Below, in pieces: positions 1 through 46,858 of a stretch of DNA of 46,858 bases (positions are counted from its first letter, which is position 1; every line of letters begins with the position of its first letter). The notes under the pieces are model-generated. The model saw only the letters and a program-made list of their open reading frames with translations, was not told the DNA's origin and searched no databases. The stretch lies in the IMG/VR virus record IMGVR_UViG_3300018013_000015, positions 1-46,858 of that record, one strand, 5' to 3'. Origin of the DNA: a virus. A program made the position numbers and the translations under genes.

Positions 1-123
1 CTCAAACTTAGATTCGCGGCCCTCTTTCACTTCGATTTTTTTCTTCCCGTTGCAGGTCTTACACTCGAAGCCGGTGAGAGGTATGTCGATGCTTACTAGT
101 ATCTTCTCGCCGATGGCTCTGAA
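1..123. repeat. Terminal direct repeat (circular assembly overlap), copy 1
   Basis: Bases 1-123 are identical to bases 46736-46858. A gene reading frame (the GroES-like protein) runs without interruption through the join, so the repeat most simply marks a circular or circularly permuted genome of 46,735 bp rather than a biological terminal repeat. Confidence 0.95.
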
Positions 124-288
124 AGTGTAGGGAAAGCCTGGAAAGTTCACTTCGTTGGTTTGGTCAAGAACGATGCTTTCGATAGAGCCAGTATCGTACT
201 TGCTGGCATCGTCGGCTTCTTTGAGACGCTCACCCAGTTTGATCTGCTCTGCGGTACGGAAATCTGTCATTATCTCATGCGGTGGCAT
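1..288 (-). CDS. GroES-like co-chaperonin with zinc motif, N-terminal part (continues at 46735)
   Basis: First 96 codons of a 192-residue protein that continues at 46735..46445 across the circular join. The ATG at 288 overlaps the stop of the DUF3987 gene (TAATG), with GGGAGAG upstream. Residues 1-55 are an extra N-terminal region. Residues 57-68 (RAIGEKILVSID) match the first strand of GroES. Then, where GroES has its GroEL-binding mobile loop, there is CKTCNG (C76, C79) followed by a second pair in CPTCKGQG (C98, C101). These resemble half of the four-motif DnaJ zinc domain. This is the last gene of the leftward replication operon. The GroES assignment rests on motif order seen by eye. The zinc insertion is what the sequence shows; its function is unknown. 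Confidence 0.75.
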   Translation of the reverse strand, partial: MPPHEIMTDFRTAEQIKLGERLKEADDASKYDTGSIESIVLDQTNEVNFPGFPYTFRAIGEKILVSIDIPLTGFECKTCNGKKKIEVKEGRESKFE

Positions 289-1529
289 TACGGCACTCTC
301 CCATTCTTAGGTTGTGATGCTGCGTGTTGATAGTATGTTGGCACTCCAGAACTCTTTATGCAGAAGCCTATAGTCTCTAGAACATATAGAATTCTGTTCA
401 AAGTCTCTGGAGAGTTGATATGTTCGTGCAAAGCTCTGTAGATCTCTTTCTCCGTAGTTCGGCCTGTCTTTTCTATAAAGTCCTGAATCTTCGCCGTAGT
501 CGCGGAGTCCATACCCTCGCCGGCGCCTCTAAAGAGTTTGCCAAGTTGTGTGAACATCTTGCTTACTTCTGCAATGGCGTTGGCCATATCGACCTGGCTT
601 ATAACTAGAGAGTCGCCTCTCGAAGCGGAGAAGATCATCGCTAGTTTCAGCGTGTTCGCTTTGATACGAGCACGAGAGTTCTGTAAAACCTCGGAGTACT
701 CAGACTTAGCAATCTGCTGCTGCGTCTTAAGGAACTGTTCAAAGATAATACGAGCCGCAGTGTCTACAGTAAACTTACCATGAAGCAAAGCTATGTTTTT
801 TAAGTCGATGATTAAGTTATCATAAAGCGCTTTAGACTTAGGATTATCCTGAATAGGCTCAAGAAAAGGCACAAACCTAGACGGCGCATCAGCATAAGCA
901 AAGAAGCATCTACTTGTAAAGCCACCAGTGATAATCATCTTCGAGTTACGCATCTTGTCTACGTCGCGCATGAAAGATGGTACCGAAGCGGCGAGGAGAG
1001 AGAAGCACATCTCCTTGATCTTAATGGTGCCTTTATTCTTGGTCTTGTTTCCAAACGTCGTCTCAGACCACGCTTCTTCCAAAAAGATCAGCATCCACTC
1101 TGATGCTCCTAGCAGAGTTCTTATCTCAGTGCTGAGGCACAGGCAACTATGATCCGTGCCTCCGATGACAAGTTGCTGATTCTTTATCTGCGGCGCCTTA
1201 GCCCAGCCTTGCTCAATGTCGATAAGAATCGACTCAGTAGTATTACGGTATGAGATCAAGTTCACCACAGGATTAGGCTCAGTCTCTTCGATCAGTTTGT
1301 CTACGATGTGTAGAATAGCTCCCTTACCTATACCAGGAGGAGCTACAAGTATCACAAAGATGTTTGGATAGATCGTATAGGTTCCAGATTCAAAAAACAC
1401 GTTGTCTTTCAGCACAGCGCCGATTAGCGATAGCGCACCCCATGTCAGAAAGTTGACTGGGATGTCAGTATGTGGCGCGTAGCAATCAAGAAATGCTTCG
1501 TGAAAAGGTTTGTGCAAAATCCTGCTCAA
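288..1529 (-). CDS. DUF3987-like replicative helicase/ATPase
   Basis: A 413-residue protein with an N-terminal helical region (FLTWGALSLIGAVL) followed by a P-loop, APPGIGKG, at about residues 63-70, and a Walker B-like stretch (WMLIFLEEAW) near 145-154. This order is typical of DUF3987 and YfjI-like primase/helicase-associated ATPases that phages carry beside their polymerase, so a role as replication helicase is inferred. The start is a TTG 11 bases after the polymerase stop, with an AAGG element before it; no better ATG is available without losing the conserved N-terminus. The stop overlaps the GroES-like start (TAATG), so the two are probably translationally coupled. Confidence 0.7.
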   Translation of the reverse strand: MSRILHKPFHEAFLDCYAPHTDIPVNFLTWGALSLIGAVLKDNVFFESGTYTIYPNIFVILVAPPGIGKGAILHIVDKLIEETEPNPVVNLISYRNTTESILIDIEQGWAKAPQIKNQQLVIGGTDHSCLCLSTEIRTLLGASEWMLIFLEEAWSETTFGNKTKNKGTIKIKEMCFSLLAASVPSFMRDVDKMRNSKMIITGGFTSRCFFAYADAPSRFVPFLEPIQDNPKSKALYDNLIIDLKNIALLHGKFTVDTAARIIFEQFLKTQQQIAKSEYSEVLQNSRARIKANTLKLAMIFSASRGDSLVISQVDMANAIAEVSKMFTQLGKLFRGAGEGMDSATTAKIQDFIEKTGRTTEKEIYRALHEHINSPETLNRILYVLETIGFCIKSSGVPTYYQHAASQPKNGRVP

Positions 1530-1540
1530 GGTGGCCCTTC

Positions 1541-3019
1541 TTACACTGTGACTAACTTCTTGTCCTGCACCGCAACTTTAGCTCTGAGTTTCTCGATTGC
1601 TTCTTTGACTCCGGCGCGACTTACTTCTTTGATTTTGACCGTAGTTTGGAAGTCGTAGCCAATTTCTGCTTCGATGGGAATCTCGACTTCAATGCCATTG
1701 TGAAACTTGATAACCCTTCTAAATGCGGAATCAGTTCTGAGAAGGTATTTATAGATTGTCTCAACGTCATCGGCGATGTCCTGGACAATAGAATCATGGC
1801 CTTCTTGGACGATTTTACGTTCTTGAACTTCATAATCAGTTTCGAGTCTGAGCAAAGCAAAGCCTGTATTATCTCCCACTGTAGACTGTGGGATATAAGC
1901 ATATGCTTCTTTGAACACGCTTGAATTGTTGTCATTTGGCCTAGCTCCTAGGAATTGCCTCTCACGTCCAAACGGCGTGACAAGCACTCTGTTTTTTGAG
2001 ATTTCGTTTTGGACGTACTTGTGGAAGACCGCTCTGATAGCAGGATCGATCTTTGCAGCTTTGTCTAGCAATATCTGGCAAGCAGCCTCTGAGTATGACT
2101 TGCCTTCTTGTGCTAGGGCGTCACTCATTCTACCAGCTTTCATATCGTAATTGCTGGCGTGACGTATCTTCTTACCTAGGTATCGGTAGTCCTCATACTT
2201 CACATCATCCCAGTCAGGCTCGTTTTTACCAGGGATGTGCATATTAAACACTAGGGAAGCTAGTTTGGAATGCCGATCAATTACACCAGAACGCAATTCC
2301 TCCAATGCGTGCGTATTCTGAGACAACGCCGACACAGGCCAATCTTCGGCACTTACTTGGTCAACCATCAGCAGTATGTTCCCCGGTCTAGCAACCAAGC
2401 ACCGACGATACATCTGTGCTACGTCTGAATGTTTTGGGAAGTTCTGCGCATTATTTCCAAATCCAAAAGTATGGCGTCTACTGGAGCGTCGTCCAGTGAG
2501 AGTTCCTGCAACGTTGTAGTTAGAGAGAAAAAAACTCTGTCCTCCTCGACTGAGTAATCGAGCATTAAGATAAGAGGAGTAGAGCTTTCCGAGTTCACGC
2601 ACTTTGAGAATCGCTCTAAGAGCTGGATCACCGCCGGGATAGTTAAATTGGTTCTTACTAAGCATCTTTTGCAGAGCAAGTTCTCCGGCACTGTAGTTCT
2701 GTTCATAGTTACCCTCCGCGTTTTTCTTGGTTATTTTGACGATCTCGTAACCAAGAGTCTTGAGGCCAGCTAGGAGAGCATACTTACCCTGAGTGGCGTT
2801 GATGTTGATAGAACCTTCCGGCGCTTTAGCATCTGCGCCGGCGAAGACTTTGACACCCCACTGGTTTGTAGCGATTGCAAGCTGTCGAGCAACCTCTGCT
2901 TTGACTATAGCTTTAGCCTCTGCTATACGGTCTGTGTTGATACAGATACCGCGGTTGCCTATATCGAAGTAGGCAGCTTGTAGAGCGTGCTCGTACGAAC
3001 TGGAGACTCGTTCTAGCAT
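1541..3019 (-). CDS. DNA polymerase family A, polymerase domain only
   Basis: A 492-residue protein with polymerase motif A (LLMVDQVSAEDWPV, D220 and E225 at the places of Pol I D705 and E710), motif B (RYLGKKIRHASNYD, R279 and K283) and motif C (EGHDSI, H408-D409). No 3'-5' exonuclease lies on this chain; that activity is encoded separately at 3673-4761. The position of Pol I F762 is a histidine, and motif C has GHDS rather than VHDE. An AAGGAG lies 6 bases before the ATG. It replicates phage DNA together with the neighbouring helicase-like, exonuclease and SSB-like proteins. Confidence 0.9.
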   Translation of the reverse strand: MLERVSSSYEHALQAAYFDIGNRGICINTDRIAEAKAIVKAEVARQLAIATNQWGVKVFAGADAKAPEGSININATQGKYALLAGLKTLGYEIVKITKKNAEGNYEQNYSAGELALQKMLSKNQFNYPGGDPALRAILKVRELGKLYSSYLNARLLSRGGQSFFLSNYNVAGTLTGRRSSRRHTFGFGNNAQNFPKHSDVAQMYRRCLVARPGNILLMVDQVSAEDWPVSALSQNTHALEELRSGVIDRHSKLASLVFNMHIPGKNEPDWDDVKYEDYRYLGKKIRHASNYDMKAGRMSDALAQEGKSYSEAACQILLDKAAKIDPAIRAVFHKYVQNEISKNRVLVTPFGRERQFLGARPNDNNSSVFKEAYAYIPQSTVGDNTGFALLRLETDYEVQERKIVQEGHDSIVQDIADDVETIYKYLLRTDSAFRRVIKFHNGIEVEIPIEAEIGYDFQTTVKIKEVSRAGVKEAIEKLRAKVAVQDKKLVTV

Positions 3020-8307: not shown

Positions 8308-8465
8308 TATTCTTCCTCCAGTTCTTGAATATGTTTCTGCGCTTCACTACAGAAATTCTCAGCCAACCCAGGAGTTCTAAACGGTCCATCGGCTTGCAGC
8401 TTTGTTACTAACTGCACAGCCCACGTTAGAAACTGAATGAGTTTCATCTTCTGGAATTCCGTCAT
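8307..8465 (-). CDS. 52-residue helical hypothetical protein
   Basis: Encodes a short helical protein (MTEFQKMKLIQFLTWAVQLV at the start, an acidic LEEE end). Both ends overlap neighbours: the ATG overlaps the upstream stop as ATGA, and the stop overlaps the nuclease start as TAATG. This tight packing supports translation. No family recognised. Confidence 0.6.
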   Translation of the reverse strand: MTEFQKMKLIQFLTWAVQLVTKLQADGPFRTPGLAENFCSEAQKHIQELEEE

Positions 8466-9250
8466 TTCTTTCCCACCATCTTCGCTATGTCTTCTGGCTT
8501 CAAGCCCTTAGCAAGTAAATCCTTTAGTAAGGCATTCAGTTGCTCCGTAGCTTTCTGCTTTGAGACTGTGCGAGTTTTCTTTACTGTCGTTGTGGTTGTG
8601 CTAGTGACTCCGGCGGCGGGAGTTGAAGCGAAGTGGACCTTCACTCCGGCGTTTCGATGTAGATACGCCGCGTGCTTCTTCTCCTGCTCCGCGATCATAA
8701 GCTGTAGGATGTTACGATGATACTCAATCGTTAGATCAAGCTCTGCGTCGGATAGTTCGGGAATCTTACGCTGTGCAAACAGCCAGTCTAAGCCATCGAT
8801 CTTGATTTCACGAGCACGGCGTCTGTAGTATGAGAGCTGCCCCGTCTCTTCGTTTCTGTGTTCGTAGGACTTCGTAATCACGCTCTTTGATACAGATACG
8901 TCACTCATACAGTTGACGCAGTATTGCACGTCAATGTTCGATGCGTAGTGTAGGCAGAATGACTTACCACAGCCTGCACATTCGATAGATGACTTGTGAG
9001 TGAGATTTAGTTCAAGGCAGGAATCGCATACTAGGGAGGTTAAGTGACCTGGGTCTTCGTCGATAGGACTATCTGATGGCAGGGGAATCGTCGTTGCGGT
9101 TGCTTCTTCTGGTGTGATCTCTTCTGGCTCATCTGTTGGTATCGGAGGTTCTTCCTCGATTGGACTATCCGTAGACTCTGGGAACACATTGTCGGCTGCT
9201 TCATCTTCTATGGACCAGCCGTTAATACCATCATCCATGCACTCTGGCAT
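8462..9250 (-). CDS. Zinc-finger protein, 262 residues, acidic N-terminus
   Basis: Residues 1-70 are strongly acidic and Pro/Thr-rich. Residues about 73-118 hold a RING- or ribbon-like set of cysteines (CDSC, CAGCGKSFC, a His, CVNC), probably two zinc sites. A helical middle, a Thr-rich linker (TSTTTTTVKKTRT) and a C-terminal helix follow. AAGGAG lies 8 bases before the ATG. The function is not recognised; the DNA-replication neighbourhood suggests a nucleic-acid or protein adaptor. Confidence 0.6.
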   Translation of the reverse strand: MPECMDDGINGWSIEDEAADNVFPESTDSPIEEEPPIPTDEPEEITPEEATATTIPLPSDSPIDEDPGHLTSLVCDSCLELNLTHKSSIECAGCGKSFCLHYASNIDVQYCVNCMSDVSVSKSVITKSYEHRNEETGQLSYYRRRAREIKIDGLDWLFAQRKIPELSDAELDLTIEYHRNILQLMIAEQEKKHAAYLHRNAGVKVHFASTPAAGVTSTTTTTVKKTRTVSKQKATEQLNALLKDLLAKGLKPEDIAKMVGKK

Positions 9251-12091: not shown

Positions 12092-12240
12092 TTCCGCCTC
12101 CCCACATTCTTCGCCCACTCGTCAAAAGAATCGAAGAAGTCCTCAAACCACTCTTCATAACGAGAGGCTAAAAAGAGTGTAATGAAGGCGACGAAAAATC
12201 CAAAGCCTACGCCACTGACTATTACTAAGAAAGTTCTCAT
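12088..12240 (-). CDS. 50-residue single-pass membrane protein
   Basis: The N-terminus is one hydrophobic segment (FLVIVSGVGFGFFVAFITLF) followed by an acidic aromatic stretch (YEEWFEDFFDSF) and a basic end. This suggests an inner-membrane protein with a charged cytoplasmic tail. Both ends overlap neighbours by 4 bases (VWA gene stop upstream, 66-residue gene downstream). Function unknown; proximity to the VWA and FtsK-like genes is noted. Confidence 0.6.
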   Translation of the reverse strand: MRTFLVIVSGVGFGFFVAFITLFLASRYEEWFEDFFDSFDEWAKNVGRRK

Positions 12241-13061
12241 TTCTGCGCCCCGCTTTCTACTTGCGCTCTAAAGCTACTAGAGGCGAGCATCAATCTGTGG
12301 CACGGCGCCAAGTATTTGAACGCCGTAGCAAAGTTGACTTTCTGCGGATCAAAATGTAGGAAGTATCCGCCGGTTTTATCGGAGAGATACTTTAGCAACG
12401 CCATCTCTCCTTCTCTGAAGGCAGAGCCGAAGAATACTGTGTCGATTGGAATGCAAGGTCCATGCGCTCCGCTAGTCTTAGAGACATAGCCACCGGATAA
12501 AGATTGGTCGCCTATAGCGTACGCGATCTTGATGATAACGTCAGCGCTGGCTATCCAAGTATCTGGAGCGTTCGCACTAAAAACATAAATCTCGTCACTG
12601 TTCTCTGGCGACAGTTGGTCCGTCGGCGCGCCGTCTGTGAAAGCGATCAAGCGAGTTAGTGTAGGCTTCGCCTCAAGTGCTTTCTTGAGTGTGTTAAAGA
12701 ATGGCGTGCTGCCGGAAGAGAGCTGGGATTCTTGAATGTCCGCGGCCAGCTCCAAGAGGTTGCTACGAAGCTCAGTGCCCCATCTTGCCGTATTCATGAA
12801 GTGCACCGCTACAGCACTCTGGTTAGGAATGCAGTTGCGTAGGAATTCTACTACGCCGCGCTTTGCATTCTCGATTTGTTCGTTCATGCTACCGCTATCG
12901 TCAAAGACTATGCGGTTCCGATCTGGACACTCGCCGGGTGGCAGATAGCGTATAAGAGCGCTACGCTCCGCTCCGGCAGGTAACGCTTTTGCCCTAGCAG
13001 CTTCTATCGCTGCTCGCTTAGCGTCTACGGCGTTTCTATGGTTTTGGATTTGAAAGACCAT
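12237..13061 (-). CDS. von Willebrand factor A (VWA) domain protein with intact MIDAS
   Basis: A 274-residue protein with a VWA domain: VFDDSGSM (MIDAS D54, S56, S58), a GSTPFF threonine near 119 and the FTDGAPTD aspartate near 146. The metal-dependent ligand site therefore looks intact. VWA proteins in bacteria act as protein-binding partners, often of AAA+ ATPases such as MoxR; no MoxR is encoded here. AAGGAG lies 7 bases before the ATG. It lies in the same overlapping block as the J-domain and FtsK-like proteins. Confidence 0.85.
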   Translation of the reverse strand: MVFQIQNHRNAVDAKRAAIEAARAKALPAGAERSALIRYLPPGECPDRNRIVFDDSGSMNEQIENAKRGVVEFLRNCIPNQSAVAVHFMNTARWGTELRSNLLELAADIQESQLSSGSTPFFNTLKKALEAKPTLTRLIAFTDGAPTDQLSPENSDEIYVFSANAPDTWIASADVIIKIAYAIGDQSLSGGYVSKTSGAHGPCIPIDTVFFGSAFREGEMALLKYLSDKTGGYFLHFDPQKVNFATAFKYLAPCHRLMLASSSFRAQVESGAQK

Positions 13062-13353: not shown

Positions 13354-13546
13354 TGTTAGTTCTCCTTTTAAAACATTCATGTCTTAACCAGTTGCGTAAC
13401 TGCGCAGGTGTGGTAATTTCTCTCTCCAAGTTACAGCGTTGACAACTAACAGAGACATAATCGAATGTTGTGATATTCTCTTTGTCGTGTATCATAACTT
13501 GAGTGAGGAATTGTAATAAGCCAAGCGCTTGACCAATCTTAGGCAT
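13346..13546 (-). CDS. 66-residue zinc-finger-like protein
   Basis: The ATG at 13546 has GGAG 8 bases upstream; another ATG lies 3 codons earlier. The C-terminal half has CQRC and a later HEC set about 20 residues on, enough for one zinc site. The N-terminal half is helical (GQALGLLQFLTQVM). It overlaps the end of the J-domain gene by 8 bases. Function unknown. Confidence 0.55.
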   Translation of the reverse strand: MPKIGQALGLLQFLTQVMIHDKENITTFDYVSVSCQRCNLEREITTPAQLRNWLRHECFKRRTNNA

Positions 13547-14108
13547 TGTACACACTCCAGAGTGAGTTTAACTCAGTCATTTTTGTACCGTCGCCGTTAT
13601 TACGATCAGGATGATACCTGAGTGCAGCGCGGCGATAGGCCGACTTGTCAAGCACATCTCCCATTAGGGCTTTGAGCTTCTGCTCAAGCGTTTCCTTCGT
13701 CATCGGCACTGCTGCTACAGGCTTGCCGTAGTTATAGAAAAAGTCTTCCGGCTTCAGCCTCTGGCTATGGCCGTTGAATGTGATTCGATTGTTTAGTGCT
13801 TGCGCTGCGAGGTCTTCTACTTCAAAGCACTGAATCTCACTTTGAATAGCTTTTGTAACATCCTTGAGTGCTTGTATAACTTTCGCGCCCCAGTCGTCAA
13901 AATAGCTCCAGACTTTGTTTGTTTCGTCGTAGCTTCGCTGTGCTACAGGAGGATACTTCAAGACTTCCTTGCACATTTCGAAAGCAATCTGCTCTTTGGG
14001 GTTGCGAAAGTTTATGGCGAGGTGGCCATCGCCGTAGGAAGAGAGACGCATCTCAGTCAGAATGATTTTGCCAGTGGCGTCTTTGTGCTGTTCGTAGTAT
14101 AAGTACAC
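13539..14108 (-). CDS. J-domain (DnaJ-like) protein with unrelated N-terminal domain
   Basis: A 189-residue protein with a J-domain at the very C-terminus: YRRAALRYHPDRNNGDG with HPD at 166-168, preceded by helix I (KLKALMGDVL) and followed by a helix ending SLWSVYN. J-domains stimulate DnaK ATPase; no DnaK is encoded, so the host one would be the target. Residues 1-120 contain RSYDETNKVWSYF, which recalls small substrate-binding segments, but no family is certain. The start is GTG with AAAGGA 10 bases upstream and a GCAGC-GCTGC hairpin just before that. Inverted placement (J-domain last) is known in some phage proteins. Confidence 0.75.
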   Translation of the reverse strand: MYLYYEQHKDATGKIILTEMRLSSYGDGHLAINFRNPKEQIAFEMCKEVLKYPPVAQRSYDETNKVWSYFDDWGAKVIQALKDVTKAIQSEIQCFEVEDLAAQALNNRITFNGHSQRLKPEDFFYNYGKPVAAVPMTKETLEQKLKALMGDVLDKSAYRRAALRYHPDRNNGDGTKMTELNSLWSVYNA

Positions 14109-22062: not shown

Positions 22063-24681
22063 TTGAGTCAACGTGAGATAGAACAGAAGGTACGAGATGT
22101 ACTTCGTAGCTTAGAAGTTGGAGCTACTGGGGATACTTTCGTACCTCGTTCTACTGTGCTAGGCTATAATCTTATTCCTACGGATACAGCAAAGACTGGT
22201 GCTGAGAAGAAGCTCATCTATCGTGCAAACTCTCTGATGGATCTGTACTACTTTAGCACTGTAGTAATGGGCAAGAATCGCTTCTCCAAGAACCCAGACA
22301 AAGCAAAGAATCTTCACTACCAGATGTGCCTCACTGTAATGAAAGACGGCCTCAAGGAAGGAATCGAGATTCCACGTGACCACTTCAAAAGCACAGTCTA
22401 CAGCGAGTGTTTTCCGATCTGGCGAGCATTACCTTTTGGCAAACGGGAAGAAGATTTCTTTAGCTCAGTTGGATACTCTGATCTCTATATTGAGTGGATG
22501 CGTCGAACCCACAGCCAGGACATACGCATACTACTGGTCAGTGAAACCATCAAGAACGCAATCAAACTGGGTATCCGAATCTCAAACCACTACGAAAACA
22601 ATGCATTCTTCCGGCATCTTTTTCCTGAGCTAATGCCTACTGAGAAGGAGACGTGGACTAATGAATCTCTGCACCAGCGACGGACTCCTGCCGGTAGAGG
22701 TCAAGGAGAAGGTACTTACGATTTCATTGGAGTTGGAGCTGCCTTACAATCTCGGCACTACAACGTCGTCGTACAAGACGATCTTGTCGGGAGAGAAGCT
22801 CGGAAATCTTCAATTGTTATGGCGGATACTATTGACTACCATCAGATTCTGGTGGGCGCTACGGACAGCGATCCCAACAATCCCGGTAGAGACTTTGACG
22901 AAATCGTAGTAGCAAACCGCTGGTCCCACGATGATCTCAATTCACACATTCGGCAGGAAGAGCCTTATTTTAGTTGGACTACTCACTCCGCTTTGGGTGG
23001 TTGCTGTTCTCTTCATCCTTTCGGTACACCTATTTTCCCAGAGGCTTTCACTGCCGAAAAGCTCCTCCGCTGGAAGCATCGTCTTGGGAGTTATCATTTT
23101 TCTTGTTTTGCTGCTGGCACTTCTGTACTTATGGCTGATTACTCCGAGAAGCCTATTGAAGCTCTTCAAGTAGGAGATGAGATCGTAGGTTATACGACGG
23201 ATAACTATCTAACACTTCAGAAAGCCACTGTACAAGCTGTCAATGTTAGAAATGCAGATGTTTTTGAATTTACAACCGCTTCGGGAAGAGTGCTAAATTG
23301 TACAGCAGATCATAAGTTTCTAAAGACTTCACATAGGACTGATGATCGTGGCGGACCCTATGCTGCTATAGTAGATTTTAGCAGACGTAAAAATCCATTT
23401 ATGGAGCTTGCTTCTGTCTATACTCCGATCAAGCCGCCTTCTACTGAGCAACTTGCACTACTAAGTTGGCTTGGTGGTATGATGGATGGCGAGGGATCAT
23501 GCGGAGTGAATGGTCAGTTATGTATATCGCAATCTCCTAGAATAAATCCACTGGTTTGTGCAAGACTAGAGGAGGTTTTAAAAAAGCTTGAGATTCCTTA
23601 CGTTTACAGAGCTGACTCAGAGCAATACTTCTTGCATGGTGGAAGATCATTGAAAGTATGGCTATTGGCTTATGCTTCTATGGCTAAGCATCAACGTGTT
23701 CGTGATAGTTTATGGAATAAGCCAGGTAGAGTAATGGAAGATAGAGGTATTGACCAGGTTATAGGATTGAAACATCTTGGAACGTTGCCTGTATATAATA
23801 TTCAAAGTAGTACAGGAAATTATATAGCTGCTGGTTACGCAACTAAGAACTGCCAGTTTCTTAACTACCCTATTGATCCTTCTAAAGCCAAGTTTAACAT
23901 GGCGGATTTTCGGTACTTTCACTTCGAGAAAGTAACCGGCGCGTTGTCGATTCCAAAGGAAAGTCCAGTTATAAATCGCTTATTCGAGGTTTCGCAGCCG
24001 CAGCAATATCGCATCGTCATACGTCATCACGTCGCCGATGGAGATGTAGAGAAAGATATCTTCCCTCGCAATCTTGATCGTTACATGGTTGTTGATCCTA
24101 ATCATGGCGGTTCACACTTAGGACAAGAAGTCGGAAAAGATGGGCGCTGTCGTCATGCTATCGCCGTGACTGGAGTAATGCGCGACCCACGTCGTGTCTA
24201 CTTACTCGATCAGTGGGCTAAAGCCTGTCCTATAGACGACTTCGTGAAGAAGATCTTCTTCTACGCTATCAAATGGAAGCTTCGTACAGTCTACGTCGAA
24301 GCTGTAGCAGCTCAGAAGTATCTTCTCTATCACTTGAACTACTTCGTCGAAGAGCATAAAGATTCTCATCCAGAGATTGCTGGAATACAGTTTCTTCCTC
24401 TGAAAACTCCGCAGAATGCCAATGCTAAAGCAGAACGTATTGAGAATTTTATTCCAATCGTCGAGCGGCATGAGCTTTGGCTTGACGTAAACAACTGCGT
24501 AGAGACTAAGGAAGAAGCTGAGCAGTACGGACAGCGCAAAGGTTTAATCGATCTTCTCGATGTACTTAGCTACGGTCCTCAAGTATGGAAATTCGATACT
24601 GTATCTAAAGAGAAGGTCGATGACTTCATGGCTTTACAGAAAGTGCGGTTTGCTAGACGTATGGCAGCCGCGGCGGCCTAG
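22063..24681 (+). CDS. terL: Large terminase subunit (TerL) interrupted by an intein
   Basis: An 872-residue precursor; exteins total 623 residues. The N-extein ATPase has a P-loop-like IPRDHFKST (103-111) and Walker B VVVQDD (235-240). The C-extein has the RNase H-fold nuclease starting RYMVVDPNHGG and continuing with VYLLDQWAKACPIDDF. The extein join HFS/CQFLNYPIDPSKAKF restores a conserved terminase segment between the ATPase and nuclease. TTG start, directly after the preceding stop, with AGAGGG about 10 bases upstream. It powers DNA packaging through the portal at 25172-27142. Confidence 0.9.
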   Translation: MSQREIEQKVRDVLRSLEVGATGDTFVPRSTVLGYNLIPTDTAKTGAEKKLIYRANSLMDLYYFSTVVMGKNRFSKNPDKAKNLHYQMCLTVMKDGLKEGIEIPRDHFKSTVYSECFPIWRALPFGKREEDFFSSVGYSDLYIEWMRRTHSQDIRILLVSETIKNAIKLGIRISNHYENNAFFRHLFPELMPTEKETWTNESLHQRRTPAGRGQGEGTYDFIGVGAALQSRHYNVVVQDDLVGREARKSSIVMADTIDYHQILVGATDSDPNNPGRDFDEIVVANRWSHDDLNSHIRQEEPYFSWTTHSALGGCCSLHPFGTPIFPEAFTAEKLLRWKHRLGSYHFSCFAAGTSVLMADYSEKPIEALQVGDEIVGYTTDNYLTLQKATVQAVNVRNADVFEFTTASGRVLNCTADHKFLKTSHRTDDRGGPYAAIVDFSRRKNPFMELASVYTPIKPPSTEQLALLSWLGGMMDGEGSCGVNGQLCISQSPRINPLVCARLEEVLKKLEIPYVYRADSEQYFLHGGRSLKVWLLAYASMAKHQRVRDSLWNKPGRVMEDRGIDQVIGLKHLGTLPVYNIQSSTGNYIAAGYATKNCQFLNYPIDPSKAKFNMADFRYFHFEKVTGALSIPKESPVINRLFEVSQPQQYRIVIRHHVADGDVEKDIFPRNLDRYMVVDPNHGGSHLGQEVGKDGRCRHAIAVTGVMRDPRRVYLLDQWAKACPIDDFVKKIFFYAIKWKLRTVYVEAVAAQKYLLYHLNYFVEEHKDSHPEIAGIQFLPLKTPQNANAKAERIENFIPIVERHELWLDVNNCVETKEEAEQYGQRKGLIDLLDVLSYGPQVWKFDTVSKEKVDDFMALQKVRFARRMAAAAA
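23104..23850 (+). mobile_element. Intein with LAGLIDADG-type homing domain inside terL
   Basis: Residues 348-596 of the precursor (249 residues). It starts with C348 in CFAAGTSVLMADYSEKPIEA, then LQVGDEIVGY; a TADHKFL block B-like segment follows near 414-420. It ends VYNIQSSTGNYIAAGYATKN (N596) before C597 of the C-extein. The penultimate residue is Lys rather than the common His. A single LAGLIDADG-like motif, WLGGMMDGEGS (469-479), indicates a homing endonuclease domain. The DNA looks more AT-rich than its flanks, which fits later acquisition. Confidence 0.9.
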
Positions 24682-29430: not shown

Positions 29431-30390
29431 ATGCCTCAAGTAAGAGCGAAATTCCCACAGTTGATGCAGCCGGGGCTGAGAAAAATCTACTTCGACAGTC
29501 TCGATAACCAGCTCAAAGCATCAGACTATCCCAAGGTGTTTCACGAGGTAGATTCTGACTCTGAGTACGAACAAGAACTTGAGATGGCAGGCATCTCAAT
29601 TCTGCAGGAAAAACCTGAAAATGCTTCTACTGCATACACTGAGATGAAGCAAGGCGCTTCAAAGCGCGTGGAGCCGTTGACTTACTCTTTGGGTATTCGT
29701 ACCTCGAAGGAACTTTACGACGATGATAAGTATGGCCTCGTCGGAAAGAAAGGTCCGACGCTGCTCGCACGCTCCGCGGCGTTTACCAAGGAGATGATCG
29801 CATGGAACGTATTTAACCTTGGCTTTACTTCCTCGGTTACTACGTTCGATGGGAATCCTCTGTTCTATAATCAGCACGCTCTGCTTGGCGGTGCGCAGGC
29901 TACGTCGATCGCTCCGGGTGCAGCGGGAGTTATCTCCGCTGCTGGTACATATCCTAACCGTCCTTCGGTGGATGTGGACTTCTCGGTAGCAGGGCTTCAA
30001 CTCGCTACCAACCACGCGGCGCGTATGATCGATAACATGGGATTTCCCATCCGGCTTCGGTGGGTGAGTCTCATCACACCTCCTGAGTTGCGGTTCCTTG
30101 TGAGAGAGATTCTTGGTTCTCCTGGCAAGCCGTATACTGGAGATAACACCATCAACTCTCTGTTACCGGAGGACTACAAGAACATTGAGGTTCCTTGGCT
30201 TAACAATCCTTCTGCTTGGTTCCTTGCTGCAGAAAAGCAAGACCATGCACTTGAAGTTATCGATAGGGAAAAGCCTACTACAGACTTTGATGATGACTTC
30301 GACACCGATGCTATCAAGCAAAAGACTCGTATGCGCGTTGCTGCTTGGTGCCCACGGTGGCAGGGAGTGTGGGGAACTCAGGGACCGTAG
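29431..30390 (+). CDS. Major capsid protein
   Basis: A 319-residue protein after the decoration gene with the alternation expected of an HK97-fold capsid: an N-terminal arm (FPQLMQPGLRKIYFDSLDNQ), a core with AAFTKEMIAWNVFNLGFTSS, FDGNPLFYNQHALLGG, and a C-terminal part with VIDREKPTTDFDDDFDTDAI. The sequence recalls Mu gpT-type heads. No protease is seen and no long delta domain is present, so maturation cleavage is unlikely. GAAGGAG lies before the ATG. A structured 3' region follows. Confidence 0.75.
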   Translation: MPQVRAKFPQLMQPGLRKIYFDSLDNQLKASDYPKVFHEVDSDSEYEQELEMAGISILQEKPENASTAYTEMKQGASKRVEPLTYSLGIRTSKELYDDDKYGLVGKKGPTLLARSAAFTKEMIAWNVFNLGFTSSVTTFDGNPLFYNQHALLGGAQATSIAPGAAGVISAAGTYPNRPSVDVDFSVAGLQLATNHAARMIDNMGFPIRLRWVSLITPPELRFLVREILGSPGKPYTGDNTINSLLPEDYKNIEVPWLNNPSAWFLAAEKQDHALEVIDREKPTTDFDDDFDTDAIKQKTRMRVAAWCPRWQGVWGTQGP

Positions 30391-42569: not shown

Positions 42570-43877
42570 ATGAAAATAGCAATGTCCTCGTATAACGCAA
42601 TGGGAGCGTGGTTCGTACTTCGTCTCCTTGCAGAAGGTCATGATGTAGATTACTACCTCTCCAAAGAAGACTACGTGGACGTTCTTGGGGGACTTATTCC
42701 GTCCCCCAAGAAGCTATCGCTGGATCATAGAAGGACGGTGCAGGGATATGGGTATCCGTCGTATGAAGGATATGATCTCTCACTGTTTGATCTCACAGGT
42801 AGAGCACGACAGGCGGATGCGTCAAAGCAACAGGCTCCGACAATCGGAGACGGCACGTTTGAGCATACAATGGAAGATGATAGAAAAGCGGGCATTGAAG
42901 TAATGGAACAAGTGGGTATCAGAGTACCGCCGTACCAGGAGTTTACCGAGGTAGGTGCTGCAAAGGCTTTCATCAAGAAAGAAAATGCGCGGTACGTATA
43001 CAAACCCTACGAAGGTCCGGGCGGCTCAGAAGATAAGTCCATAACCTACGTAGCAAAAGATGCACCGGATATGCTCAAGGTCATTGACTTGCTGTACAAA
43101 CAGTCTAAGCAAATGCCTTTTCTACTTCAAGAGTTTGTCAAAGGCACAGAAGCTTCGGTAGCCGGATTCTTCAATGGTACCAACTTCTATATGCTGAGTT
43201 GCACTCTCGAAGAAAAGAAGTTTATGAACGACAACAAAGGACCGAATACTGGGTGCTCTGGTAATTTGGTCTTCGCTGTCTCTGAGGAGTCGAAGCTCTA
43301 TGGGGAAGGTCTGAAGAAGGTAATACCGATCCTCCAGAGTGTCGGCTTTACCGGCATGATTGATCTAAACACGATTCTAACTGAGGACCGAGCATACGGT
43401 CTTGAGTGGACGCCGCGCTTTGGATATCTCGCTGATCCTACTATAGCTCAGATGTATGGCCACGGCTATGCAGATATGCTGCGAAAGATTGCTTCTATGG
43501 GAGTGCCGGAGATTAAGTGGGAGGCGCCGTTTGGAGTTTCTGTGCTATTGTCGATACCGCCATATCCTACAGAGATACGAATTCCCAAAGCCAAAGACGT
43601 GCCTATCGAGGGGCTTAATCCCGAAGATTGCGAGCAGCTTTGTAGTACCTATATGTACGATGTAATGCTCGCGAAGGATAAGAAATCTCTCATAACTAGC
43701 GGTAACTATGGCTTTGTCTGTGCTCCAATAGGCGTTGGCTCCTCTATCGAAGAGGCTGCCGGAAGATGCGACAGGGCTATCGAAAAGATTCAACTCCCCA
43801 ACATGCAACTCCGTACCGACATCAACAAAGCAACTCTCAAGCGGTATCAATTTCTCGAAACTAACGGATGGCTCTAG
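42570..43877 (+). CDS. PurD-like ATP-grasp ligase, 435 residues
   Basis: Length and motif order match phosphoribosylamine-glycine ligase (GAR synthetase): an N-terminal domain (KIAMSSYNAMGAWFVLRLLA), an ATP-grasp core with VYKPYEGPGGSEDKS, LLQEFVKGTEASVAGFFNG, the PurD-type NDNKGPNTGCSGNLVF, and GLEWTPRFGYLADP. PurD joins an amine to glycine with ATP. Whether this copy acts in purine synthesis or modifies another amine (a base, protein or sugar) is open. It stands alone among virion genes; no other purine genes are present. TAGGAG precedes the ATG. Confidence 0.75.
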   Translation: MKIAMSSYNAMGAWFVLRLLAEGHDVDYYLSKEDYVDVLGGLIPSPKKLSLDHRRTVQGYGYPSYEGYDLSLFDLTGRARQADASKQQAPTIGDGTFEHTMEDDRKAGIEVMEQVGIRVPPYQEFTEVGAAKAFIKKENARYVYKPYEGPGGSEDKSITYVAKDAPDMLKVIDLLYKQSKQMPFLLQEFVKGTEASVAGFFNGTNFYMLSCTLEEKKFMNDNKGPNTGCSGNLVFAVSEESKLYGEGLKKVIPILQSVGFTGMIDLNTILTEDRAYGLEWTPRFGYLADPTIAQMYGHGYADMLRKIASMGVPEIKWEAPFGVSVLLSIPPYPTEIRIPKAKDVPIEGLNPEDCEQLCSTYMYDVMLAKDKKSLITSGNYGFVCAPIGVGSSIEEAAGRCDRAIEKIQLPNMQLRTDINKATLKRYQFLETNGWL

Positions 43878-46444: not shown

Positions 46445-46858
46445 CTACTCTTCCGTACTGAGTACGAAATTAAACGCGCTCATAGCATCTGCTCCCTTAA
46501 TCTTCAGAATCGCATTATACCAATCCATGTACTTGAACATCAGACCAGCTTGCGTGGGAATCATAGTGCCGGCGTGCTGGCTAAAGAGTATGCGATCTCC
46601 TATGCGAATATCCTCCTTGGCTAGTTCCTCTCCTGCTTTCTTACCAGTGGACAGAATGATCCCAGTCGTGGGAAGGTTCTTAGAACTCTTCGGCACTATG
46701 ATCAAGCCGCCTTGACCTTTGCAGGTAGGGCATTCCTCAAACTTAGATTCGCGGCCCTCTTTCACTTCGATTTTTTTCTTCCCGTTGCAGGTCTTACACT
46801 CGAAGCCGGTGAGAGGTATGTCGATGCTTACTAGTATCTTCTCGCCGATGGCTCTGAA
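46445..46858 (-). CDS. GroES-like co-chaperonin with zinc motif, C-terminal part (continues from window base 1)
   Basis: C-terminal 96 codons of the 192-residue protein plus the 123-bp overlap. After the second cysteine pair the sequence resumes as GroES: GGLIIV at the place of the GroES GGIVL tripeptide, TTGIILSTGKK (like RGEVLAVGNG), IRIGDRILFSQHAGTMI (like VKVGDIVIFNDGYGVK) and a final strand near residues 162-176. GroES normally forms a seven-subunit lid on GroEL, and phage versions (T4 gp31) redirect GroEL to capsid protein. No GroEL is encoded here, so a host chaperonin would be the partner. The cytoplasm is the expected location. The gene ends about 50 bases before a bidirectional terminator. 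Confidence 0.75.
   Translation of the reverse strand, partial: FRAIGEKILVSIDIPLTGFECKTCNGKKKIEVKEGRESKFEECPTCKGQGGLIIVPKSSKNLPTTGIILSTGKKAGEELAKEDIRIGDRILFSQHAGTMIPTQAGLMFKYMDWYNAILKIKGADAMSAFNFVLSTEE
46736..46858. repeat. Terminal direct repeat (circular assembly overlap), copy 2
   Basis: Exact second copy of bases 1-123. A true short direct terminal repeat cannot be excluded from sequence alone. However, the position is in mid-gene and the length is like an assembler overlap, which argues for an artefact of circularity. Confidence 0.95.

Follow-up and report, generated by a model that had tools for sequence, protein, structure and literature searches.

The window, meaning the whole 46,858-nucleotide stretch of viral DNA analysed here (IMG/VR record IMGVR_UViG_3300018013_000015), carried an exact 123-bp terminal direct repeat (positions 1-123 = 46736-46858), showing that the genome is circular, with 46,735 bp, and that joining its two ends is legitimate. 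When the ends were joined, a stop-free open reading frame of 192 aa was obtained on the minus strand across the circular junction; the repeat and the uninterrupted frame bore out the joined protein proposed in the initial annotation. Residues 56-192 were readable without the join, at 46448-46858 (-). The four cysteines were found where that annotation had placed them (C76, C79, C98 and C101), forming two CxxC pairs that come after barrel strand 1 and before an IVL-like motif. The protein is referred to below as Zn-GroES, and its parts and the genes that bear on its role are listed in Table 1.

Table 1. Parts of the Zn-GroES gene and related genes in the window
Feature	Position	Strand	Basis or remark
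Zn-GroES gene, 5' part	1..288	-	start codon at 288; N-terminal extension, barrel strand 1, first CxxC; runs on over the junction
Zn-GroES gene, 3' part	46445..46858	-	residues 56-192 without the join; last 123 bp repeat 1-123
GroES barrel strand 1 (residues 57-68)	46820..46855, also 85-120	-	AF2 strand E7-12 of the fragment; hhalign with insert removed
Putative DnaJ-type zinc insert, C76-x2-C79 ... C98-x2-C101, 26 residues	46721..46798	-	N-terminal arm of mobile loop
GGLIIV, IVL-like hydrophobic GroEL-binding tripeptide region, kept	46694..46711	-	
Remaining mobile loop and GroES beta-barrel	46445..46693	-	short roof segment, 14 residues from conserved G to GD
DUF3987 ATPase, directly upstream, conserved neighbour of Zn-GroES	288..1529	-	PF13148 E=2.5e-18; synteny
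Family A DNA polymerase (DNAP)	1541..3019	-	PF00476 E=1.3e-19; conserved order DNAP - DUF3987 - Zn-GroES
J-domain (HPD) protein without zinc domain, candidate partner	13539..14108	-	PF00226 24.6 bits, below cut-off 27.8
Major capsid protein (Phage_capsid_4 / gpT-like), proposed client	29431..30390	+	PF25209 E=2.3e-9

GroES fold and position of the insert

Pfam Cpn10 (PF00166) matched residues 105-158 of the window protein with E=1.1e-7 and 32.2 bits against a cut-off of 21.1, and PHROG 3188 (co-chaperonin GroES) was the matching assignment. The AF2 model of the window fragment had a pLDDT of 82.5 and a pTM of 0.66. When this model was searched with Foldseek, the top 36 matches were all GroES/Cpn10 or co-chaperonin chains, T4 gp31 among them, with a probability of 1.00; against single-domain GroES chains the TM was 0.55-0.71 by target length, with a high rmsd. 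Three retrieval rounds from IMG/VR contigs gave 36 distinct viral proteins, window included, which were aligned. Cpn10 was matched by 32 of the 36 (Pfam, E<=0.01), and the family profile matched Cpn10 structures in the PDB with a best E of 1.2e-11. Both the profile match and the fold are those expected from the initial annotation.

When the insert was deleted, the family profile aligned with ordinary Cpn10 from strand 1 to the C-terminus (hhalign E=1.8e-14); when it was present, the alignment covered just the portion after it. The full-length match after deletion places the insert within the N-terminal arm of the mobile loop, directly before GGI(V)L. In the window protein, GGLIIVP and its following arm corresponded to the GroES tripeptide and the loop downstream of it, and the residues before the proline were mostly hydrophobic family-wide. 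The earlier description of the mobile loop as replaced was too strong, since the loop is interrupted, with the hydrophobic tripeptide within GGLIIVP and the following arm retained. The layout common to the family was strand 1, a SGYECKxC-like start, a second outer CxxCxG, the hydrophobic tripeptide, a proline, a PTTG-like turn and the GD strand. The roof segment (G to GD) had 8-14 residues in most members, compared with 16 in E. coli-type GroES, and was longer in some members. The fold and the insert position are well supported; alignments and predicted model together established the barrel, the place of the insert and the retained tripeptide.

A gene that crosses contig ends could be an ordinary artefact of chimeric assembly or frameshift fusion, and a GroES-like fold of the dehydrogenase type, with its structural zinc lobe, could look similar, ADH_N being matched, weakly, by 2 of the 36 members. 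However, residues 56-192 were contiguous without the join, the same layout recurred in dozens of independent contigs, and the 32 members with a Cpn10 match stand against the two with ADH_N. The dehydrogenase zinc lobe also comes after the 'GDxV' strand, unlike the mobile-loop position found here. Both the assembly artefact and the dehydrogenase lobe were ruled out by the homologues, and we regard any explanation of this kind as next to impossible.

Cysteine sites and likeness to DnaJ

C76, C79, C98 and C101 (C21, C24, C43 and C46 of the fragment) were invariant in all 36 distinct proteins at a mean column identity of 26%, which excludes chance. The search patterns used for the family had partly included the first cysteines; hence retrieval was repeated by barrel alone and by DUF3987 alone. 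When only the barrel sequence was used, both outer pairs were present in 26 of 26 proteins. When only the upstream DUF3987 gene was used, both were present in all 56 loci with a complete gene (41 distinct inserts); one more gene was cut by a contig end, and the other 23 loci, truncated or far more distant, gave no match. Search bias as the cause of the apparent conservation was rejected by these two retrievals, and homologues with conserved cysteines, to which the initial annotation had looked, were found in each. One candidate relative (L003) proved to be a chance CxxC match and was dropped. An absent Cpn10 match, a non-GroES fold and cysteine-less homologues had been named beforehand as outcomes contradicting the annotation; all three were examined and none occurred.

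The claimed DnaJ-type zinc motif stood at family level and fell short for the window alone. PF00684 (DnaJ_CXXCXGXG) covered residues 76-107 of the window protein with 19.8 bits, below the cut-off of 32.7, and two relatives (L001 and L002) were likewise under it. The same profile was matched by 22 of the 36 family members (E<=0.01), and the family profile retrieved DnaJ zinc domains from the PDB at E=0.0013-0.05, with 1exk at E=0.0013. The window protein has two CxxC pairs, compared with four in relatives such as L033. The AF2 model of this eight-cysteine member had a pLDDT of 72.6, with some blocks down to 46, and matched in Foldseek both GroES and, separately, BSD2 (DnaJ-type fold), the latter with a probability of 0.99 but E=0.09. 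The AF2 models also matched T4 gp31, 1g31 and 2cgt being among the Foldseek targets. The window model matched 2ctt (DnaJ-type zinc domain) with a probability of 0.57 and E=2.1, and the zinc part was predicted with less confidence than the barrel. No J-domain (PF00226) match was found by Pfam inside the Zn-GroES protein of the window.

Inserts in the family ranged from 24 to 104 residues, and their cysteine counts were mostly 4, 8, 9 or 12, with 11 in one; two inserts read by eye (L222 and L232) had eight each. Clustering at 4, 8 (or 9) and 12 is the pattern expected of one, two or three four-cysteine zinc sites, and the insert is predicted to bind metal. In one Zn-GroES (L035, 7662-8387), whose gene reaches the contig end, the 104-residue insert had 12 cysteines, which may form three zinc sites. 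A divergent Zn-GroES (L234, around 5139) had the 11 insert cysteines, at odds with whole four-cysteine sites.

Members with eight cysteines resemble, in sequence, the whole DnaJ cysteine-rich domain, of which the window would carry a reduced form. In a tree built without the insert columns, states with four cysteines and with eight or more switched at least six times, a count that does not separate losses from gains; the outer set was constant and never lost. The alignment established an invariant outer four-cysteine site and an optional inner one. Because the inner site changed at least six times and the outer set stayed constant, the 'half' domain of the window is, on this tree, one among several short forms.

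We take motifs 1 and 4 of DnaJ to belong to centre I and motifs 2 and 3 to centre II. From this assignment and the nesting order of the pairs, the invariant outer set would correspond to DnaJ centre I and the inner site to centre II. In DnaJ, centre I is reported to be required for the binding of substrate, whereas centre II has been linked with DnaK (PMC4428491). An outer set equivalent to the substrate-linked centre favours client binding over DnaK docking. A metal-rigidified or a substrate-binding loop is plausible, and the data lean to substrate binding.

It is possible, if clearly less than probable, that the zinc insert does no more than make the mobile loop longer and stiffer. It would then adjust the affinity for GroEL or, like the longer loop of gp31, give a larger cage, with no client binding by the insert. 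The location of the insert exactly in the GroEL-binding loop is consistent with such a structural clip, as is the sufficiency in several lineages of a minimal four-cysteine form, some 26 residues long. Most Zn-GroES members have a short roof segment, and gp31 too has a longer, flexible loop and no roof (PMC6318259). However, a clip leaves unexplained why inserts reach 104 residues and 12 cysteines, and it gives no reason for a putative DnaJ/BSD2-type fold with CxxCxGxG motifs.

Gene neighbourhood, proposed client and J-domain companion

In most members the genes ran in the order DNAP - DUF3987 ATPase - Zn-GroES, followed by convergent structural genes; the Zn-GroES gene in most members lies at the end of the replication operon, away from the capsid gene. 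This order would agree with a heptamer of GroES fold that has given up its service to GroEL and works in replication instead, for instance as a zinc-bearing ring around DNA or the polymerase. The HMO-2011-type phage DNA polymerase contains part of a DnaJ central domain, including two CXXCXGXG motifs (PMC9038755). Such a role is highly improbable in our judgement, as the GroEL-binding tripeptide is kept family-wide in the form of mostly hydrophobic residues before the proline, and in a second group (L031 and L036) the Zn-GroES gene lies upstream of a terminase-like gene. No chaperonin was encoded in any of the 29 Zn-GroES records, indicating that the lid must rely on host GroEL, if on any.

The PF25209 capsid protein was present in 19 of 22 Zn-GroES records. 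Among isolated or reference phages, those with a related capsid had an ordinary, insert-less Cpn10 in 5 of 5 tested, and Cpn10 was absent from 3 of 3 phages sharing DUF3987 only. In this small sample of few reference records, which are not phylogenetically independent, lid presence appears to follow capsid type. Such a pattern would be expected with the capsid protein as client, in parallel to T4 gp31, which serves the capsid protein gp23 (PMC6318259).

Our preferred reading, for and against which we find the chances about evenly balanced, is that Zn-GroES is a GroES-type lid supplied by the phage for the GroEL of its host. The lid would carry seven built-in zinc domains that are DnaJ/BSD2-like and bind clients, and its client would probably be the major capsid protein. 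The position of the gene apart from the capsid gene in most members counts against this reading. The protein would form the usual heptamer and bind host GroEL via the retained tripeptide, and seven zinc domains would thereby be placed at the interface of lid and chaperonin. Their most likely role would be that of client-holding arms (like gp31 plus BSD2) that catch a phage protein, most likely the major capsid protein, as it is encapsulated or released. The inner site, the putative equivalent of the DnaK-linked centre II, would be dispensable and is missing in the window.

A J-domain protein without a zinc domain was encoded in 19 of the 29 Zn-GroES records, most of the matches falling under the Pfam cut-off. 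None was found in 23 records with ordinary CRP-902-type GroES, many of these being shorter fragments, or in eight reference phages. The difference between 19/29 and 0/23 had a Fisher p=2.8e-7, for phages that are related and so not phylogenetically independent. When a contig (L312) was fetched by its J-protein alone, it again carried Zn-GroES; three J-protein contigs of 21-40 kb, possibly incomplete, were without it.

This co-occurrence (19/29 records vs 0/31 controls), together with the contig retrieved via its J-protein only, would suit an insert through which the lid docks either to the DnaK of the host or to the J-domain protein of the phage. Release from Hsp70 would then be coupled with encapsulation, and DnaJ would be split over two phage proteins. 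We consider this improbable. The presumed equivalent of the DnaK-linked centre II, the inner site, is the variable one and is absent in the window despite the J-protein there, and the co-occurrence may reflect shared ancestry only. In the preferred reading of a client-binding lid, the companion J-domain protein may pass clients on from host DnaK. A wider version, which we offer tentatively and judge unlikely, would have three chaperone activities in one polypeptide: a GroEL lid, DnaJ/BSD2-type zinc client binding at the lid-chaperonin contact, and a host DnaK link via the co-inherited J-domain protein. If so, the ring would both hold capsid subunits and pass them on, before their encapsulation as well as after it, as a client-binding chaperonin lid.

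The J-domain protein of the window has its HPD motif in the C-terminal part and an N-terminal domain without a name. A protein with a VWA-like DDSGSM motif is encoded nearby (12237-13061, -), and in L103 the gene next after that of the J-domain protein encodes a similar one.

Relation to known systems and further observations

GroES is one of the most thoroughly studied components of the chaperone machinery, and descriptions of its loop are of a flexible peptide in contact with GroEL. Zn-GroES shares with GroES/Cpn10 the barrel, the loop order, the IVL-like tripeptide before P and the G..GD signature; unlike GroES/Cpn10, it has a cysteine-rich mobile-loop insert of 24-104 residues, an N-terminal extension and, in most members, a short roof segment. 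T4 gp31 is likewise a phage-encoded GroES-fold lid with an altered loop, and its reduced roof may have a counterpart in the short roof segment of most Zn-GroES members, but to our knowledge its loop carries no metal domain. The CRP-902-type GroES also occurs in phages with a related capsid protein; it differs in its ordinary loop KTKTAGGILLPESS, with no cysteine pairs before the tripeptide. With the DnaJ central domain (PF00684) and BSD2, Zn-GroES shares the CxxCxGxG motifs, the nested outer and inner cysteine pairs and possibly, in the model of the eight-cysteine member, a BSD2-like fold. It is unlike them in that the zinc domain sits in a GroES loop and the inner site is optional, the window keeping half only. 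BSD2 is a J-less DnaJ-type zinc protein required for Rubisco assembly (PMC4428491, PMC7865324). The nearest phage precedent for the module is the DnaJ insert of the HMO-2011-type polymerase, where the two motifs are also inserted into an unrelated phage protein, the difference being that the carrier is a polymerase (PMC9038755). Engineered human Cpn10 has been used as a display scaffold with foreign peptides in the mobile loop and heptamers kept; by contrast, it is a man-made construct in which other sequence takes the place of the native Cpn60-binding loop (PMC5118791).

When 50,697 records of isolated phages were searched by single-protein tblastn, only weak matches to the Cpn10 half or the DnaJ half were obtained, none combined. 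Two pattern-based scans of 84,980 genomes (GTDB) found no relative, and rare divergent copies could escape such scans. No combination of GroES and a DnaJ zinc domain was present among the solved structures searched, and a zinc-containing GroES was not found in the open-licence literature. The statement of the initial annotation that no example is described therefore held across that literature and both collections. A natural family with a DnaJ-type zinc domain threaded through the GroES loop suggests that a lid can bear its own client- or partner-binding domain. The family offers a direct route to asking whether a co-chaperonin takes part in client selection. It also tests why some phages carry their own lid, as capsid type appears linked to lid presence across quite different lids.

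Three other genes of the window were recorded. A large terminase-like open reading frame (22063-24681, +) is split by an intein/Hint-like segment (Hom_end_hint E=4.1e-7, just under cut-off). A cysteine-rich protein (8462-9250, -) had a weak zf-CRD match (E=7.5e-4, under cut-off). An open reading frame at 42570-43877 (+) looked like an ATP-grasp ligase by eye, and similar frames were seen near Zn-GroES in two other contigs (L045 and L051).
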